A stretch of DNA of 64,000 nucleotides, from contig NZ_OUND01000001.1 of assembly GCF_900343025.1 (NCBI RefSeq), forward strand, positions 310,001 through 374,000. The letters are read 5' to 3'. The position numbers and the translations under genes are program-made. Under the pieces are notes generated by a model. The model did no database searches, was not told the DNA's origin, and worked only from the letters and a program-made list of their open reading frames with translations. This stretch comes from Arsenophonus endosymbiont of Aleurodicus floccissimus. Lineage in GTDB: Bacteria; Pseudomonadota; Gammaproteobacteria; Enterobacterales; Enterobacteriaceae. Positions 14,928 through 39,872 of this stretch are shown piece by piece (position 1 is the stretch's first letter; every line of letters starts with the position of its first letter).

Positions 14928-17900
14928 TTATGCCAGTGTCATTAAACTGGCATTGCCACCAGCCGCCACGGTATTGACACTGACCGCTCGTTCATGGACT
15001 AAACGCTCAAGTAATAACTGCTGGTTTCCGGATCGATATCCTTGCACGGAAATAATTGGCCCGTCACGCTCAGCCACTACCTGATAAACAGTTTGTAACT
15101 GATGGCGATCGCCATGAAAAATAACCCCATCAAATTGGCAATCGGTTAGTTGCCAATTATCAGTTAGCCTGATTATCTGGTTGACTAATTCAGTCAATTC
15201 AGTGTGCAATTGCTGCTGGATGGCATTATTTGGCCATAGTACCTGACATCCCTTCGCTAACACCGCTGCCAGTTGGATCACTGCATCCGCTTCTGTTTCC
15301 GCTAGACACAAAATCTGCCCGCAGGGCACTAGCCTATAATTATTATGCTCTCCGGTTGGGCTGGGCAGTTGATGGCAGATGCAGGTTGTGGTCAATGGCT
15401 GCAATGATGGTTGGCCATGTTTTACTGGATAGCGATTATTTGTTGGCGTAAACAGTTTGTCCATGATGGTAGCTGGTCTTTGGCTGAGCAATTGATAGAG
15501 ATAAAGGGGGACACCGGCTTTTGGCCCGGTACCCGATAGTCCTTCTCCGCCAAAGGGTTGTACCCCAACCACCGCACCGACCATATTGCGGTTAACGTAA
15601 ATATTACCTACTTTGTCCGTCTGGCAAACCTCGGCAATAGTTTTATCAATACGGCTATGCAGCCCTAAAGTTAAACCATAACCTGAGTCATTAATCTATT
15701 TGATCAGGCTAGCGAATTGATGGCGCTTAAAGCGTAAAATATGCAGTACCGGGCCAAAAATTTCCTTTTTCAGTTCATTAAAATGGTCAATTTCAATTAA
15801 GGTGGGTCGGACAAAAGGTACCTTGTTGCCATTGATTATCATACGGTTGGCTAGCTTGTTGAGTCTGATACAGGCTTTTTCCTGCTTGCCGCATCTGGGC
15901 AATGTCTTGTTCGATATTCTGCTATGCTTCACGATCAATGACCGGGCCAATATCGGTCGCCAGCTGGCTAGGATAAGCGACCCGGTATTCGGCCATCGCG
16001 CCTTTTAACATCGTCAGTGTGCGTTCAGCGACCTCTTCCTGGTACAAAGAATACGTAGGGCAGAGCAGCGTTGACCGGCACTATCTAAGGCTGAAATGAT
16101 AACGTCATTGATAATTTACTCCGTTAAAGCGGATGAGTCAACAATCATGGCATTTAAGCCGCCGGTTTCGGCAATTAGTGGAATGGGCTGTTGCTGAGCA
16201 TTGAGTCGGCCGGTAAGATTATGCTGGATCAGTTTAGCCACCTGGGTTGAACCGGTAAACATCACACCGTCCGTCCGCTTGTCACTGATCAGTTTGCTAC
16301 CCACTTACTCTCCGCTACCGGGCAGCAGCTGGAGAACATCGCGGAGGATGCCCGCCTGATGCAGTAACTCAACCGCTAGTACGGCAATAATCGGTGTTTG
16401 CTCTGCCGGTTTGGCTAATACACTATTACCGCTACCGCTACCGCTACCGCTACCGCTACCGCTACCGCTACCGCTACCGCTACCGCTCGCTAAAGCGTCC
16501 GCAATTGGGCCGCTAAAAATCGCCAGAGGGAAATTCCACGGACTAGTGCAAACCACCACACCCAGTGGCGAACAGTTTTCATTATCGATCGAAATTTTCA
16601 CTGATCTGCGCGGCGTAGTAACGCAAAAAATCGATCGCTTCGCGCACTTCAGTAATGGCATTACTAAAGGTTTTTCCGGCTTCACGGATTAATACGCCAA
16701 TTAAACGGGAGAATTGCTGCTCCATCAGGCTAGCCGCTTGTTGCGAAATGGCCACTCGTTCGATGACGGGGCTCGTCGCCCAGCGAGTAGCTGCGGTAGT
16801 AGCAATTTTAAACGCATGCTCGACGTCGGTTAGGCTTGTTTGGTGGACATAGCCGACGATATCGTCAAAATTAGCCGGATTAGTGATCGGCTGTTGGGCT
16901 GAAATTTCAGCCGGCGAAGGTGGTTCTCCTGCCAGTAAAGGTTTAACCTGATAACAGAGTGGGGTAGTCAGTAGGGTCTACGCCAGTGCCTGCCAGGTGA
17001 TGTTCGTTAGTAAAATCAATACCAATAGCATTGAGGCGGTTGCTGCCATATAGCGCACGAGGCAGTGGGATTTGTGTGCGTGGCAAACCCAGTTGGCCTG
17101 TCGTTTCAGCTGCCGCCAGCACTTGTTGTACTGGGTCGGCCACCAGTTTATCTAATGGAATATTAGGATCGGCAATCTGATTAACGAATGACGTATTTGC
17201 GCCATTTTCCAGTAAGCGGCGCACCAGATAAGTCAACAAGGTTTGATGACTACCGACTGGCGCATAAATACGACAGGGACGATTAAGTTTACCTTCGGCG
17301 ATGGAGCCGACAACTTGTTGATATAGCCCTTCGCCCATGCCATGTAAACATTGAAATTCATATTGGCCAGGATAATAATTTTCACCAGCCATATAATAAA
17401 TCGTGGCTAAGGTATGGGCGTTATGGGTGGCAAATTGGGGATAAATTAAATTGGGCACCGACAGCAATTTATGCGCACAAGCCAGATAACTGACGTCAGT
17501 ATAAATTTTTCTGCTATAGACCGGGTAACCTTCAAGACCATCTATTTGCGCGCGTTTAATTTCACTATCCCAATCAGCGCCTTTTACCAGTCGGATCATC
17601 AAACGGTGCTGACTGCGTTGCGCTAAATCGATAATTTCATCGATCACATAGGGGCAGCGTTTTGGATATGCCTGAATAACAAAGCCAATTCCATCCCAGC
17701 CGGCTAGTTGTGGTTCGAAGCAAAATTTTTCTAACAGATCGAGGGAAATTTCCAATCTATCTGCTTTTTCAGCATCAATATTAATGCCAATATCGTAATG
17801 ACGGGCTTGTAAGGTTAATGTTAATAGACGAGGGTAAAGCTCAGACATCACCCGCTCATATTGAGCCCGGCAATATCTTGCATGGAGGGCAGACAGTTTA

Positions 17901-29954: not shown

Positions 29955-31229
29955 TTACAGTTTGATAACTATTTTTTTTATCGCTTGCGTTAACTTAGTC
30001 AGCTGTTCAGCGGTAATAATATAGGGTGGCATTAGATAAATTAATTTACCAAATGGCCGAATCCAAACTCCCTCAGCGACAAAATGACGTTGTAATTCGG
30101 GCACATTGAAGGGGTTTTTCATTTCAACAACGCCAATTGCGCCTAAAACTCGCACGTCAGCAACTTGTGGTTGATCTAGCAGTGGGTAGAGTTCAGCCAT
30201 CAATTGAGTTTCAATGTTTTTCACCCATTTTTGCCATGGGCTATTCCTTAGTAATGTTATGCTCGCATCAGCGATCGCGCAGGCTAGTGGGTTGCCCATA
30301 AAAGTGGGTCCATGCATAAAACAGCCAGCTTTACCTTGGCTGATGGTCTCCGCGATAGGACGGCTGGTCAGAGTGGCTGACAGTGTGACATAACCCCCGG
30401 TTAGCGCTTTACCTAAACATAAAATATCCGGCGCAATGCCGCTATATTGACAAGCAAATAATTTGCCGGTACGGCCAAAACCAGTGGCGATTTCATCGGC
30501 AATCAGCAAAATATTATAGCGATCGCATAATTCTCTCACTGCCGTCAAATAATTAGGGTGATAAATGCGCATACCGCCCGCTCCCTGAACGATCGGCTCA
30601 ACGATGATGGCAGCAATTTTGTCGGCCTGTTCGGTTAGTATTTTTTGTAATGGGATCAGAGAGTCGGCTTGCCATTGCTGATAAAAACTTAATTGAGGCG
30701 CTTGCACGAAAATATGTTCGGGTAGATAGCCCCGATAAAGACTATGCATCGAGTTTTCCGGATCGCAAACTGACATAGCACCAAAGGTATCCCCATGATA
30801 TCCTCGTTGTAAGGCAATAAACTTGTGGCGCGCTTCGCCCCGTGCCTGCCAATACTGTAATGCCATTTTTAATGCCACCTCAACCGCAACTGAGCCGGAA
30901 TCAGCCAGAAAAATGCACTCTAGTTTATCATCAGTTATATCGATTAATTGTCGGCACAAAACAGTTGCTGCCGGATGAGTGATGCCGCCAAACATTACAT
31001 GGGACATTTTCGTTAATTGCTCTGTAGCGGCTTGATTGAGTACGGGATGGTTATAGCCATGAATTGCTGCCCACCAGGAAGCCATTCCATCAATCAATTT
31101 TCTGCCATCAGCTAATTCAAGTTCGACACCTGAAGCGCGCACGACAGGATAAGCCGGTATTGGTTTGGTCATTGAAATGTATGGGTGCCAAATATGTTTC
31201 GCATCAAAATTAAGATCGTCGATTTTCAT
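29955..31229 (-). CDS. bioA: Adenosylmethionine-8-amino-7-oxononanoate aminotransferase
   Basis: BioA converts KAPA to DAPA with S-adenosylmethionine as amino donor, the antepenultimate step of biotin synthesis. It is a PLP enzyme of fold type I. The frame is complete at 424 residues (E. coli 429). It keeps [12 protein letters not shown] with the active-site Tyr, the [20 protein letters not shown] block, [18 protein letters not shown] with the PLP-binding Asp, the Schiff-base Lys in [11 protein letters not shown], and [16 protein letters not shown]. It is divergent from bioBFCD across a shared operator region. No lesion is seen. Confidence 0.96.
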
Positions 31230-31235
31230 TATCCA

Positions 31236-31268
31236 TAGTCAACTAATTATATTTATTTTAGTTGACAT
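31236..31268. promoter_or_regulatory. BirA operator between bioA and bioB
   Basis: TAGTCAACT and AGTTGACAT form an inverted repeat with a 15-base spacer, centred between the divergent bioA and bioB starts. In enterics BirA with biotinyl-AMP binds here as TTGTAAACC-N15/16-GGTTTACAA. The half-sites share the core GT-AAC with the consensus. The operator overlaps both promoter regions, giving joint repression by biotin (known for the family, inferred here). Confidence 0.6.
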
Positions 31269-31317: not shown

Positions 31318-32343
31318 ATGGTGAAGATGGAAAAACCATGGACACTTAGCCAGGCACAAGCACTATTTGATTTACCTTTTTTTGCATTACTTTTTCAAGC
31401 TCAGCAAGTTCATCGTCAACATTTTGATCCGCAACAGATCCAGATTAGTACTTTACTCTCCATTAAAACCGGCGCTTACCCGGAAGATTGCAAATATTGC
31501 CCACAAAGTGCTCGTTATAAAACCGGATTAAAAGCCGAGCGACTAGAAATCCAGCAAGTAATTGAATCGGCTAAACAAGCCAAAAAAGCCGGTTCAACCC
31601 GTTTTTGTATGGGCGCTGCCTGGCGCAATCCTCATGAATGCGATATGCCTTATCTCGAAACCATGGTGAAAGAAGTTAAAGCGTTAGGGTTAGAACCCTG
31701 CATGACACTGGGTAAATTAAATGATCATCAAGCACACCGGTTAGCGGAGGCTGGACTTGATTATTACAATCACAATTTAGACACCTCACCTGAATTTTAT
31801 GGCAGCATCATTACCACTCGAACCTATCAAGAAAGACTGGATACGATTGATGTAGTTCGTCAGGCAGGCATGAAGGTGTGTTCTGGTGGAATTGTTGGTT
31901 TAGGCGAAAAGGTTACTGATCGGGCGGCGCTATTGGTTCAATTAGCTAATTTACTGCAGGCTCCTGAAAATGTGCCGATTAATCTGCTAATAAAAATAAA
32001 AGGCACGCCCCTTGAAGATAATGAAGATGTCGATCCTTTTGACTTTATTCGAACCATCTCTGTTGCCCGTATTATGATGCCAACCTCTTTTGTCCGGCTT
32101 TCTGCTGGCCGTGAACAGATGAAAGCACTCTGTTTTATGACCGGGGCTAACTCCCTCTTTTATAGCTGTAAGTTATTAACGGCAGCTAATCCCAAAGAAG
32201 ATAAAGATCAGCAACTTTTTCGCAAGCTAAATATTAATCCTCAACCGATTGCAACCGCCTTGACTCACCGCCAGCAAATTGAGCGGTTGGAAGAGGCTAT
32301 GATGCAGGTGGATACGGAACAGTTTTATAACGCGGCACTATAA
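31318..32343 (+). CDS. bioB: Biotin synthase BioB, full length but lacking one [4Fe-4S] Cys
   Basis: BioB is the radical-SAM enzyme that inserts sulfur into dethiobiotin. The frame is complete (341 residues from the ATG at 31318, which has a good GGAAGAGAG site). It aligns with E. coli BioB throughout, including [38 protein letters not shown] and FVRLSAGR, so the [2Fe-2S] ligands look present. The CxxxCxxC motif reads [10 protein letters not shown]. The first Cys is Tyr54 (codon TAC at 31477-31479; Cys53 in E. coli). A 4-5 residue deletion also occurs at REQM-KALCF. Known chemistry predicts loss of activity. It overlaps bioF by TAATG. Confidence 0.95.
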
Positions 32344-33509
32344 TGAATTGGTCAACATTTTTAACTCGTCAACTTGATATCCGCAAGCAGCAAGCATTGT
32401 GGCGGCAGCGGCAGCTAATTAAAAAAAATGATGCGTGTACGCTAATCTTTGATCAACAGCAGTATGTCAATTTTTCAAGTAATGATTATCTGGGATTAAG
32501 TCATCATGCGGCAATTATTAAAGCCTGGCAAACAGGATTAAGCCAATATGGAACTGGTAGTGGAAGCTCTGGTTATATTATCAGTTTTAATTGTGCTCAC
32601 GCCCAATTAGAGCAAAAGCTTGCCGATTGGTTAGGTTACTCCCGTGCTTTGTTATTTATTTTCGGCTATGCGGCAAATCAAAGTGTAATAACGACCTTAA
32701 TGAACAAAAATGATCATATTGTGGCCGATAAACTCAGTCATGCATCCTTACTGGAAGCCGTGATGTTATCGCCAGCTAGATTACAACGTTTTGCCCATAA
32801 TCAACCTGACGCCTTAAGGCATCTTTTGGCGACCAATCATACTGGTAAAACAATGGTTGCCACTGAAGGTATATTTAGTATGGATTGCGATAGTGCCCCT
32901 TTAGCTCAGTTGCAGGCAGTGGCGAGGCAAGCGCAGGCGTGGTTATTAGTGGATGATGCCCATGGTATTGGCGTCAGAGGCCATGAAGGCAGAGGTAGTT
33001 GTTATCTGCATAAAATAAAACCTGAACTGCTGGTGGTGACATTTGGTAAAGCTTTTGGTCTTAGTGGTGCAGCATTGCTTTGTGATGAAAACACCACTGA
33101 CTATTTTCTGCAATATGCTCGCTATTTGATTTATAGTACTTCAATGCCTCCGTCTCAAGCAGTGGCATTAGCTGAGGCGGTTAGACAAATTCGTCAAGCA
33201 GATGAATTAAGAGCCAATTTACAGCGCAATATTGATTATTTTCGTCAATTAGCTAACCACTATCAATTGCTATTATTAAATTCCGCTAGCTCAATTCAGC
33301 CACTCATTGTTGGTAGTAACCAACGCTGTTTACAGTTATCTCAATTTTTACGCCAGCAAGGATTTTGGGTGCAAGCTATTCGGCCGCCAACGGTCCCCGC
33401 GGGTAGTGCAAGATTAAGGATCACCTTGACGGCTAATCATCAATTAGCCGATATTGCACGGTTAATGGAAAAGTTAAATGACTTCTTTAACAACGACGCC
33501 GATGAATAA
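32343..33509 (+). CDS. bioF: 8-amino-7-oxononanoate synthase BioF, possibly eroding
   Basis: BioF condenses pimeloyl-ACP with alanine, the first dedicated ring-forming step of biotin synthesis. The frame is complete (388 residues, E. coli 384). PLP-enzyme residues keep the E. coli numbering: His133 in LSHASLLEA, Asp204 and His207 in VDDAHG, and the Schiff-base Lys236 in VTFGKAFG. However, the glycine-rich loop reads GSSGYIISFN (residues 74-83) where the family has SGHVSGYS, and LLFIFGYAAN replaces LLFISGFAAN. These changes at normally invariant sites suggest relaxed selection. It overlaps bioC by 8 bases. Confidence 0.93.
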   Translation: MNWSTFLTRQLDIRKQQALWRQRQLIKKNDACTLIFDQQQYVNFSSNDYLGLSHHAAIIKAWQTGLSQYGTGSGSSGYIISFNCAHAQLEQKLADWLGYSRALLFIFGYAANQSVITTLMNKNDHIVADKLSHASLLEAVMLSPARLQRFAHNQPDALRHLLATNHTGKTMVATEGIFSMDCDSAPLAQLQAVARQAQAWLLVDDAHGIGVRGHEGRGSCYLHKIKPELLVVTFGKAFGLSGAALLCDENTTDYFLQYARYLIYSTSMPPSQAVALAEAVRQIRQADELRANLQRNIDYFRQLANHYQLLLLNSASSIQPLIVGSNQRCLQLSQFLRQQGFWVQAIRPPTVPAGSARLRITLTANHQLADIARLMEKLNDFFNNDADE

Positions 33510-34244
33510 GCAAGCAATTGTTCATGCTTTTGGGCGGGCGGCCAAAAATTACGACAATATTGCATTATTTCAACAACAAAGTGGCCAACATCTGTTTGAT
33601 TGCTTATCTGCAATACCTGGTAACACAGTGCTGGCTATGGTACCTGCTATTTCAGTGCGCAGTGGCAGTTAGCTGGAAAACGGGTCATTGCCCTCGATCT
33701 GTCTGCATCTGATGTTAGCATAGCTCAACAAAAGCAAGCGGCTATGAGCTATATCCAGGCCGATATAGAGAAATTACTACTCGCCGATGAAAGTGTTGAT
33801 CTCTGTTTTAGTCATCTTGCTATTCAGTGGTGTAGTAATTTATCTATCCCATTAAATGAATGATATCGTGTTACTAAAAAGGGTGGGATCGTTGCTTTTT
33901 CTACTTTTAGTCGATGGCTCATTACAAGAGTTACAACAGTGTTGGCAAAAGGTTGATAATAACCGGCACATTAATTCTTTTATGACTTTTGAACAAATTA
34001 AGCAGGCTTGTCGTGATTGGCCGCATAGTTTAAAACAGCGTTGCTGGCATTTAATTTACCCTACATTTGCTTGTTTACTTCAATCTATAAAGGGTATTGG
34101 CGCGACTTATCTAACGGATGGGCGTCACAGCAGGGTCTAATGACAAAAAACCAGTTAGCTAAACTGGTTGATCATTATCCTCATATTAATCAGCAATTTC
34201 CCTTAACTTATCAACTGGTTTATGGAATGTTATATCGTGAATAG
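33502..34244 (+). pseudogene. bioC: Malonyl-ACP O-methyltransferase BioC, broken
   Basis: BioC methylates malonyl-ACP to start pimeloyl synthesis. The start MNKQAIVHAFGRAAKNYD is normal. At about 33633 the SAM-binding motif (expected LDAGCGTG) is lost through a deletion of about 7 bases that shifts the frame; GYGTCYFSAQWQLAGKRVI continues in the next frame. A stop interrupts after LSIPLNE at about 33862, and further shifts follow. The C-terminus SIKGIGATYLTDGRHS and the final YPLTYQLVYGMLYRE are legible to the TAG, which overlaps bioD. The biotin precursor pathway is therefore cut at its first step, unless replaced. Confidence 0.93.
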
Positions 34245-34914
34245 ATGTTTTTTTGTCACCGGAACTGACACAGATGTGGGTAAGACTGTCGTCAGCTGTG
34301 CGCTGCTACAAGCAGCTGCCAATCAGGGTTATCAAACAGCAGCCTATAAACCGGTAGCTTCAGGCAGTAAACAATTAACCGTTGGCTTAAGAAATTCAGA
34401 TGCCCAGTTATTAAGAAAAAATAGTAGCGTGAAACTGAATTACCATGATGTTAATCCGATCGTTTTTGCTCAAGCAACGTCACCCCATATTGCTAGTCAG
34501 CTAACAGGGGAGCTTATCGATTGGCAGATAATGCATGGAGGATTAAATAAATTAAAACAATCTGCTGACTGGATCATTGTCGAAGGTGTTGGTGGATGGT
34601 ATACACCGCTTTGTGCTGAGCACACCTTGGCTGATTGGGTTATACAACAGCAATTGCCAGTGATATTAACGGTTGGCATTAAATTGGGTTGTATCAACCA
34701 TGCATTATTAACCGCACAGGCCATTGAGCAAAGTGGTTTATCATTGGCAGGCTGGGTGGCTAATGAAATTGTTTTACCGGGTCAATATCAGCAGGATTAT
34801 TTGCTAACATTAAAGCAACGGCTGTCAGCGCCATGTTTAGGTGTTATTCCGCATTTGCCGAATTGGCAATCTCATTCGATTGGCAAATTTGTCAATTTAG
34901 ATAACCTACTGTAA
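34237..34914 (+). CDS. bioD: Dethiobiotin synthetase
   Basis: BioD closes the ureido ring of dethiobiotin from DAPA, CO2 and ATP. The frame is complete, 225 residues from the GTG at 34237; an ATG 15 bases earlier is also in frame but adds residues the family lacks. The Walker A motif GTDTDVGKT, KPVASGS, the LRNSDAQLL stretch, VEGVGGWYTPL and GIKLGCINHALLTA are all present. The GTG lies inside the bioC stop region, indicating translational coupling. A terminator hairpin follows 15 bases after the stop. No damage is visible. Confidence 0.95.
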   Translation: MNRCFFVTGTDTDVGKTVVSCALLQAAANQGYQTAAYKPVASGSKQLTVGLRNSDAQLLRKNSSVKLNYHDVNPIVFAQATSPHIASQLTGELIDWQIMHGGLNKLKQSADWIIVEGVGGWYTPLCAEHTLADWVIQQQLPVILTVGIKLGCINHALLTAQAIEQSGLSLAGWVANEIVLPGQYQQDYLLTLKQRLSAPCLGVIPHLPNWQSHSIGKFVNLDNLL

Positions 34915-35468: not shown

Positions 35469-37481
35469 ATGAGTAAAGTCTTCAAATTGCATGCTGAATT
35501 TCAACCTACCGGTGATCAGCCCGCAGCGATAAAGAAATTAATCGAAGGTCTTAATGATGGATTGGCTCATCAAACCTTACTTGGGGTCACCGGATCGGGT
35601 AAAACATTCACTATCGCTAATGTTATTGAGCAGGTTAACCGCCCGGTAATGGTAATGGCTCACAATAAGACGTTGGCTGCACAATTATATAGTGAGATGA
35701 AGGCTTTTTTTCCTGACAATGCGGTGGAATATTTTGTTTCTTATTATGATTATTATCAACCAGAAGCGTATGTTCCAAGCTCCGATACCTTTATTGAAAA
35801 AGATGCTTCTATTAACGAACATATTGAACAGATGCGACTCTCTGCCACTAAAGCACTGCTTGAAAGACGTGATGTTATTGTTGTTGCTTCGGTATCAGCG
35901 ATTTATGGTTTAGGTGATCCTGATAGCTATCTAAAAATGATGCTTCATTTAACCAAAGGTATGATTATTAATCAGCGAGCTATCTTACGCCGCCTAGCCG
36001 ATTTGCAATATAGCCGCAATGATCAAGCATTTCAGCGAGGTACATTTAGAGTTAGAGGGGAAGTGATTGATATTTTTCCTGCCGAATCAGATCAATATGC
36101 GTTACGAGTTGAATTATTTGATGAGGAAGTAGAACGGCTAGCGCTTTTTGATCACTTAACCGGACAGATCCAACATAATGTACCGCGATTTACCATTTAT
36201 CCTAAAACCCACTATGTAACTCCACGTGAGCGTATCCTTGAAGCCATGGAGCAGATTAAAACTGAATTGGCACAAAGACGTAAATTACTACTGGAAAATG
36301 GTAAACTTGTTGAAGAGCAGCGGTTAACACAGCGTACCCAGTTTGATTTAGAGATGATGAATGAATTGGGTTATTGTTCTGGTATTGAAAATTATTCACC
36401 TTATCTTTCTGGCCGTGCAAGCGGTGAATCACCACCAACGCTATTTGATTATTTACCCGCGGATGGTTTATTAGTTATTGATGAATCGCATGTCACCATC
36501 CCACAGATTGGCGGTATGTATCGCGGTGATCGCTCCCGTAAAGAGACATTGGTAGAATATGGTTTTCGCTTACCTTCTGCGCTGGATAATCGCCCGTTAC
36601 ATTTTGAAGAATTTGAAGTACTTTCCCCACAAACAATTTATATTTCTGCCACGCCAGGTAAGTATGAATTGGAAAAATCGGCGAATGAAATTATTGAGCA
36701 AGTTGTCCGGCCAACTGGCTTACTTGATCCCGAAATTGAGGTTCGTCCGGTAGCCACCCAAGTTGATGATCTGTTATCTGAGATCAATTTGCGTACAGCG
36801 GTAAATGAACGAGTGTTAGTAACAACGTTAACCAAAAGAATGGCAGAAGATTTGACCGATTATCTGCAAGAACATGACATAAAGGTTCGTTATTTGCATT
36901 CAGATATTGATACCGTTGAACGGGTCGAAATTATTCGTGATTTGCGGTTAGGCTTATTTGATGTTTTAGTGGGCATCAACTTATTGCGTGAAGGGCTGGA
37001 CATGCCAGAGGTATCGTTAGTTGCTATCTTAGACGCAGATAAAGAAGGATTTTTACGTTCAGAACGCTCATTAATTCAAACGATTGGTCGTGTAGCACGT
37101 AACCTGAAAGGTAAAGCTATTTTATATGGCGATAAGATTACTGATTCAATGGCAAAAGCGATTAAAGAAACGGAACGTCGTCGCGAAAAGCAAATCGCCT
37201 TTAATCAAAAGCATGGTATTGTGCCTAAAGGTTTAAATAAAAAAGTTGGCGATATTTTACAAGTCGGTGTACCAGTATCGTCAAAAGGCAAACATAAACA
37301 ATCGCAAGTATCACAGATTATCGAAGATTATCAGAAACTTTCGACCAAAGAATTGGAGCTTAAAATTCAGGCATTAGAAGCACAAATGTATCGTTATGCA
37401 CAAGATCTTGAATTTGAACAAGCAGCCAGTTTACGCGATCAAATTCAATTGCTACGTGAACAGTTTATTGCTAATTCTTAA
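35469..37481 (+). CDS. uvrB: Excinuclease ABC subunit B
   Basis: UvrB is the damage-verifying helicase-like core of nucleotide excision repair, acting with UvrA and UvrC. The frame is complete at 670 residues (E. coli 673). Visible landmarks are Walker [11 protein letters not shown], the beta-hairpin region [34 protein letters not shown], helicase motifs ([29 protein letters not shown]) and the C-terminal UVR coiled coil ([20 protein letters not shown]). A LexA box precedes it. No lesion is seen in 2 kb, in sharp contrast to the neighbourhood. The gene is under selection. Confidence 0.98.
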
Positions 37482-38888: not shown

Positions 38889-39872
38889 ATGACTCAACTT
38901 ATTGATACTTTTGCCCGTAAATTCTACTACTTAAGACTATCCATAACGGATGTATGTAATTTTCGCTGCACATATTGTCTACCAAATGGATATAAATCGA
39001 ATGGTGATTAAGCCTTTTTATCGTTGCAGGAAATTGCTTTTCTGACTAAAGCTTCCGCTGAGCTTGGTACCGAAAAAATTCGCTTAACAGGCGGCGAATA
39101 ATCCACCATGCGCCGAGATTTTATTGACATTATTGCTACCATCAAACAAAACCATGCGATCAAGAAAATTGCCTTAACTACTAATCGTTATCGGCTGGCC
39201 AAAAATGTTAGCTAGTGGAAAAATGCCGGTTTAACGGACATTAATGTCCGTGTTGATAGTCTTGATCCGCGGCAGTTTTTAGCCATTACCGGGCAAGATA
39301 AATTTTTTTAAGTCATGGCCGGAATTGATGCTGCTTTAGAGGCAGGTTATGACAAAATAAAAGTCAATGTTGTGTTGATGAAAAACATCAATGACAGTAA
39401 TTTAGCGAGTTTTATCAACTGGATCAAATTGCGGCCAATCCAACTACGATTTATTGAATTAATGGAAACCGGTGAGAGTGATAAAATATTTCGTCGTCAC
39501 CATGTCTTAGGCGAAAAGATCCGTCGGCGCTTGTTAGAGCAAAATTGGCAGCAAGTACCACGCGGTCGTTCTGATGGACCAGCCCAGGTTTTTAAGCACC
39601 CTGATTATAGTGGTGAAATTGGTTTAATCATTCCTTATGAGCAGAATTTTTGTCAAAGTTGTAATCGCTTACGGGTCTCTTCTATCGGTCATCTTCGTCT
39701 CTGTCTGTTTGGCGAGCGCAGTATTATTTTACGTGATCTATTGGTTGATGCATCCCAATCTGAGGTATTAAAAGCATGTATTCAGGCAGAATTACAATTA
39801 AAACGTGCAAGCCATTTTCTTCATCAAGGAGATAGTAGTATTACGTCAAATCTTTCAATTATTGGGGGATAA
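38889..39872 (+). pseudogene. moaA: GTP 3',8-cyclase MoaA, four in-frame stops
   Basis: MoaA is the radical-SAM enzyme that starts molybdopterin synthesis from GTP. The reading frame never shifts over 328 codons. It carries CxxxCxxC as VCNFRCTYC and the second cluster ligands in [19 protein letters not shown]. It also has [15 protein letters not shown] and the C-terminal GG needed for activity. In-frame nonsense codons stand at 39009-39011, 39099-39101, 39213-39215 and 39309-39311. This is a clean case of inactivation by substitution. The last of these fits a CAA (Gln) to TAA change. It sits below a Moco riboswitch. Confidence 0.96.

Follow-up and report, generated by a model that had tools for sequence, protein, structure and literature searches.

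The biotin synthase gene (bioB) of ARAF, the Arsenophonus of the whitefly Aleurodicus floccissimus, is in our reading a recent cryptic (missense) pseudogene with a predicted inactive product, and we put the probability of this at roughly 0.88. The gene lies in the stretch of DNA analysed here (the window, 64,000 nucleotides of contig NZ_OUND01000001.1), for which a first-pass annotation had proposed a silent pseudogene that would pass as intact, and this main inference is very likely right. The frame runs for 341 codons on the + strand without a stop (31318-32343), and its product passes the curated biotin synthase model NCBIfam TIGR00433 (score 373.4 bits, cut-off 225) despite the lost cysteine and many changes at invariant sites described below.

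Loss of a cluster cysteine in BioB

The radical-SAM motif of the window BioB reads YPEDCKYC (YxxxCxxC), where a functional BioB has the three cysteines of CxxxCxxC. The first-pass annotation had placed a Tyr codon for the first cluster cysteine at 31477-31479 (TAC), and its strand, frame and coordinates hold. It had also proposed aligning BioB from related symbionts. Our comparison set consisted of the best 80 of at least 593 confirmed matches, all from other genera, and 6 copies from the same genus; the column of residue 54 is Cys in 86 of these 86, an invariance among near relatives of the window BioB and not one that is family-wide. Cys in every compared relative is consistent with the single transition, TGC to TAC, that had been suggested. 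In E. coli BioB, mutation of one such Cys abolishes activity, and a literature search for papers testing E. coli BioB Cys mutants found none. The remaining motif cysteines, C58 and C61, are kept in the window, as are C97, C128, C188 and R260, which we take to be the [2Fe-2S] ligands, and each of these is invariant in the same 86 sequences (best 80 of at least 593, plus 6 from the genus). Two of the latter group are named in PMC11099021, which lists the E. coli BioB cysteines as well, one of them with an apparently misprinted number. The three cysteines hold the radical-SAM [4Fe-4S] cluster, and its fourth iron binds AdoMet (PMC3702613).

As a genome-wide control, a radical-SAM domain search of the window's genome returned 15 stretches. 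CxxxCxxC is present in 11 of them, some of which are broken downstream, in 3 others, all fragments, the motif lies outside the open frame, and only BioB spans the motif position without the first Cys. One radical-SAM gene in the window (38940-39425), in our own reading moaA, is the reverse of bioB in that it has four stops yet an intact CxxxCxxC. We discarded an AlphaFold model of the window BioB, built from 15 sequences, for its low quality (mean pLDDT 58.6).

Table 1. Features of the bio locus, in window positions
Feature	Position	Strand	Evidence
bioA, divergent, open, constrained	29955..31229	-	TIGR00508 above cut-off; omega 0.15; 0/8 changes at invariant sites
Inverted repeat GTCAACTAA-N11-TTAGTTGAC between bioA and bioB	31238..31266	.	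sequence and genus alignment
bioB, full-length frame of 341 aa, product predicted to be an inactive biotin synthase	31318..32343	+	TIGR00433 and alignment with 80 + 6 relatives
bioB codon 54, TAC, Tyr replacing the first [4Fe-4S] cysteine (E. coli Cys53)	31477..31479	+	sequence
One-residue in-frame deletion in bioB, AERLLE to AERLE	31540..31545	+	missing Leu present in 80/80 non-genus BioB (best of at least 593)
Four-residue in-frame deletion in bioB, REQMNEQMQALC to REQMKALC	32110..32124	+	alignment
bioF, open frame, relaxed constraint	32343..33509	+	432.7 bits vs cut-off 426.45; omega 0.49 vs 0.15
bioC remnant, broken	33502..34244	+	alignment with five open copies of relatives; below family cut-off
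bioD, open frame	34222..34914	+	TIGR00347 190.9 bits vs 83.3; omega 1.33, interval about 0.3-5

Deletions and placement of changes in bioB

The first-pass annotation had described a deletion of 4-5 residues at REQM-KALC. The loss is real, but it is not one event: four residues are missing at REQM/KALC and a separate Leu at AERLLE. Both gaps are also visible against E. coli BioB (1r30), and the product has 341 residues, compared with 346 without the two deletions. Only the window lineage has these in-frame deletions and a burst of invariant-site changes; in close relatives the bioB frame is open and encodes the Cys.

We called a residue lineage-unique if the other six genus copies agree, and a column invariant if one residue is shared by 95% or more of the 80 outsiders (the best of at least 593, which applies to all the counts that follow in this paragraph). 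By this measure, 7 of the 9 lineage-unique residues of the window BioB fall at invariant columns. The nearest relatives have none there (G008 0/2, G001 0/3 and G003 0/2), and the counts are 2/20 in G005 and 3/26 in G002. The stop-bearing copy of G004 has 2/7 and was excluded from both of the comparisons made, in which 7/9 in the window stood against 5/53 summed over the five open relatives (Fisher p=5e-5) and against 0/7 in the three nearest relatives (p=0.003).

Polarised substitutions, which we used only for the placement of changes, number 18 on the window branch of bioB. Among the nonsynonymous ones 8 of 11 are at invariant sites, where neutrality predicts a share of 0.47 and gives a probability of 0.08 for 8 or more (76 of the 80 orthologs, themselves the best of at least 593, met the coverage and no-stop filter). 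Changes falling regardless of constraint are a mark of cryptic pseudogenes, and this is the pattern in the window bioB. The placement differs from that in the neighbouring bioA, with 0/8 (Fisher p=0.003), and from that in bioB on the G008 branch, with 0/5 (p=0.026). The corresponding counts for the other genes were 0/8 for bioA (37 orthologs; expectation 0.37), 3/17 for bioF (75 orthologs; 0.19), 1/7 for bioD (58 orthologs; 0.22) and 6/14 for uvrB (9 orthologs; 0.73); such counts are small and noisy, bioA of G008 having 2/6.

Selection on the window branch

A custom branch codon model, with one omega on the window branch and one elsewhere, was applied to five genus members; for bioF the broken copy of G004 was excluded, leaving four. 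For bioA, omega was 0.15 on the window branch and 0.13 elsewhere, which is no difference, and it was below 1 (p=9e-6). For bioB it was 0.23 (about 0.15-0.5) vs 0.13 elsewhere (p=0.16), again below 1 (p=0.0005) and close to the 0.20 of the G008 branch. Omega was raised in bioF (0.49 vs 0.15, p=0.007; test against 1, p=0.13) and in bioD (1.33 vs 0.18, p=0.013), where it was indistinguishable from 1 with an interval of about 0.3-5. Taken jointly, bioB, bioF and bioD differed from bioA with p=0.047 on a grid. Joint selection on bioA and bioD was considered and holds for bioA only.

The codon model showed that strict polarised counts, which had indicated near-neutral evolution of bioB, overstated neutrality, because synonymous sites at which the outgroups differ are removed by their filter. 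A dN/dS near 1, as a mark of cryptic pseudogenes, is not what bioB has. Its omega of 0.23 is a branch average, which implies constraint for the greater part of the branch and argues against long neutrality; it speaks against an old loss, not a recent one. The codon-model result fits a bioB that would have been released late and then accumulated changes of the damaging class. According to PMC3499248, dN/dS was unusable for identifying cryptic pseudogenes.

In the same model uvrB (window 35469-37481), which is open, had an omega of 0.18 on the window branch vs 0.042 elsewhere (p=0.0004). It evolves faster here, with changes such as R311P, and may be weakening in the window lineage.

Neighbouring genes of the operon

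The product of bioF barely exceeds its family cut-off (432.7 vs 426.45 bits; that of G008 scores 450.0), and two of its changes, G81S and G182C, alter glycines that are invariant in 75 of 75 orthologs. The remnant of bioC has a 7-nt deletion near 33628-33636 in its first conserved motif, presumably the SAM-binding one, and a TGA at 33861-33863, beyond which the frame shifts once by +1 and once by -1. In BioD, a loop Ala that is Ala in 58 of 58 orthologs is Val; we dropped this change as a sign of damage, G002 (taken as A. lipoptenae) having Ile at this position in a BioD that is presumably functional. A second bioD-like stretch (G000:C2:549294-549791, in the window's genome) is above the family cut-off and has an internal TGA. 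The inverted repeat between bioA and bioB, by analogy a possible BirA operator, is kept in close relatives, and its left arm is altered in the reduced genomes G002 and G005. In the window's genome bioH is open. On the evidence of its frames and their changes, then, the window bio operon is decaying, with bioC broken, bioF relaxed, bioA constrained and bioD open at an omega indistinguishable from 1. Elsewhere in the window, a long Gly-Ser repeat (SGSGSG..., 16305-16685) interrupts what by eye resembles a piece of a broken putA, and could suggest expansion of a short tandem repeat.

The TAA of bioB (32341-32343) overlaps the ATG of bioF (32343-32345), and both indels in bioB are multiples of three, as would suit a frame kept for a non-catalytic reason, either translational coupling to bioF-bioD or a binding role. 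We consider this very unlikely, since bioF is itself relaxed and the stops of bioC already interrupt translation ahead of bioD. Moreover, with 18 polarised substitutions on the branch, the chance survival of an open bioB frame is by our estimate unremarkable.

The operon had also been expected to be wrongly scored as a biotin-provisioning trait. This was apt for bioB, which is deceptive, but not for an operon otherwise intact: bioC, next but one to bioB, is visibly broken, and therefore a scorer counting genes would already see a gap.

Source assembly and base quality

The window's genome comprises 3,001,875 bases in 11 contigs. The published ARAF assembly has the same total (3,001,875 bp) in the same number of contigs, a coverage of 2,500x, and 1,213 annotated pseudogenes next to 1,781 CDS; the sequencing was by Illumina after GenomiPhi whole-genome amplification of pooled bacteriomes, and contigs were read-corrected (PMC6167482). 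That high coverage and read correction make a base error at codon 54 unlikely.

A search of this one genome did not find birA, an empty result that alone shows nothing, and murB, the neighbour of birA in G008, was likewise undetected in it. We considered the loss of birA as a sign of collapse of biotin metabolism and rejected it: an assembly gap is the simpler account because murB is undetected too, and accB is present. A genuine loss of the biotin ligase would, if true, be remarkable.

Biotin genes across the genus

Nine genus genomes were surveyed for bio genes, the window's genome (G000) being one of them. In G001, G002, G003 and G008, bioA, bioB, bioC, bioD and bioF are all open. G004 has stops in bioB (2) and bioD and a damaged bioF, with bioA and bioC open. 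In G005, taken as the Ceratovacuna japonica symbiont, bioA, bioB and bioD are open and a profile search for bioF, bioC and bioH gave none above the cut-off; this locus (L093) adds a third kind of incomplete biotin operon to those of the genus. G006, taken as ARAD (the Arsenophonus of Aleurodicus dispersus; published size 663,125, PMC6167482), has open bioA and bioD, a stop-ridden remnant of bioB, and no bioF, bioC or bioH above the cut-off. In G007, bioA is in pieces with stops, bioD is a fragment and a search for bioB gave no match.

Discussion

With only two thiolates left, BioB would no longer be able to retain its site-differentiated [4Fe-4S] cluster, at which AdoMet is bound and cleaved. 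Without AdoMet cleavage no 5'-deoxyadenosyl radical would be formed and dethiobiotin would not be turned into biotin, and the [2Fe-2S] sulfur-donor site, unchanged as it is, would be useless without radical generation. We infer that the death of bioB was recent from the kind of its changes, which are few in number. The frame-keeping indels, the absence of a stop and the retained operator-like repeat upstream count against its death.

That BioB is still active, with Tyr54 or some other group as the third cluster ligand, we regard as highly improbable. The branch omega well below 1 and the retention of the other ligand residues favour an active enzyme, but none of the 86 compared BioB (the best 80 of at least 593, plus 6 from the genus) is without the motif Cys, there are further changes at invariant sites and two deleted stretches, and we know of no working radical-SAM enzyme with Tyr as a cluster ligand. 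Least probable of the explanations considered, by a small margin, is that TAC at codon 54 is a sequencing or assembly error and bioB is normal, as the amplification of the DNA from pooled bacteriomes before sequencing might allow, since the published coverage and read-based correction (PMC6167482) speak against it, a single base error explains neither the two in-frame deletions, the other invariant-site changes nor the broken bioC, and the motif is intact in the 11 further radical-SAM stretches of this assembly whose open frame covers it.

Natural inactive BioB and cryptic pseudogenes in symbionts are both known already, and a recent cryptic pseudogene, as we read the window bioB, has likenesses to each. 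The cryptic pseudogenes of Sodalis glossinidius and SOPE are open, undisrupted frames in a recently host-restricted genome with many visible pseudogenes, as here; their numbers were estimated statistically, whereas in the window a single gene is recognised through a lost cluster ligand and changes at invariant sites (PMC3499248). A 2026 paper uses the term in another meaning, for very degraded remnants (PMC13345370). Natural BioB alleles of the soybean cyst nematode are full-length and fail to complement an E. coli bioB mutant; their differences lie at positions 24 and 44 and spare the cysteine motif, while in the window the motif itself is changed (PMC6909392). In the main-text passages covered of the literature joining A. 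floccissimus, Arsenophonus and biotin, the Tyr substitution is unreported.

The proposed setting is an operon that would be losing function in ARAF, with bioC broken, bioB dead, bioF decaying, bioA constrained and bioD open. The whitefly host is reported with bioB-, bioC-, bioF- and bioH-like genes, the bioA and bioD steps reportedly being missing in it, and the published reading for ARAF is a biotin synthesis shared with the host and not self-sufficient provisioning (PMC6167482). These host genes plausibly permit relaxation in the symbiont, and the host may supply the missing biotin step. PMC6167482 implies that ARAF, unlike ARAD, retained more than bioA and bioD. Judged by frames and residues, bioB and bioC of ARAF, at the least, are nonfunctional, and the active-site evidence suggests that ARAF is approaching the pair bioA and bioD of ARAD, so that the difference between the two would be smaller than annotation suggests.

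ARAD resembles the window in that bioA and bioD are open and bioB is lost, in a host with reported bioBCFH-like genes (PMC6167482). It differs in its stop-bearing bioB remnant and in having no bioF, bioC or bioH above the cut-off, where bioB, bioF and bioH are open in the window's genome. If bioA and bioD are the minimal set, as in ARAD, the window has bioA open and constrained and bioD open with an omega of 1.33 (interval about 0.3-5); as for the losses expected under such a set, bioC is broken, bioB is predicted to be dead, and bioF is relaxed yet open. It is a tentative and somewhat doubtful proposal that these data conceal a convergence, in which two separate Arsenophonus lineages in Aleurodicus whiteflies were reduced to bioA and bioD, ARAD openly and ARAF behind open frames; bioD supports this hypothesis weakly. 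If true, ARAF would make dethiobiotin from a precursor supplied by the host, and the BioB of the host would complete biotin.

Vitamin provisioning by symbionts is usually scored through gene presence, for example by K numbers (PMC10654098) or by enzyme counts (PMC6167482). The bioB of ARAF passes a curated profile without a residue that is chemically needed, and thus a residue-level check alters the pathway map of ARAF. If bioF is dead too, the working set of ARAF would near that of ARAD, and a host-driven partition of the biotin pathway would be a repeated outcome.
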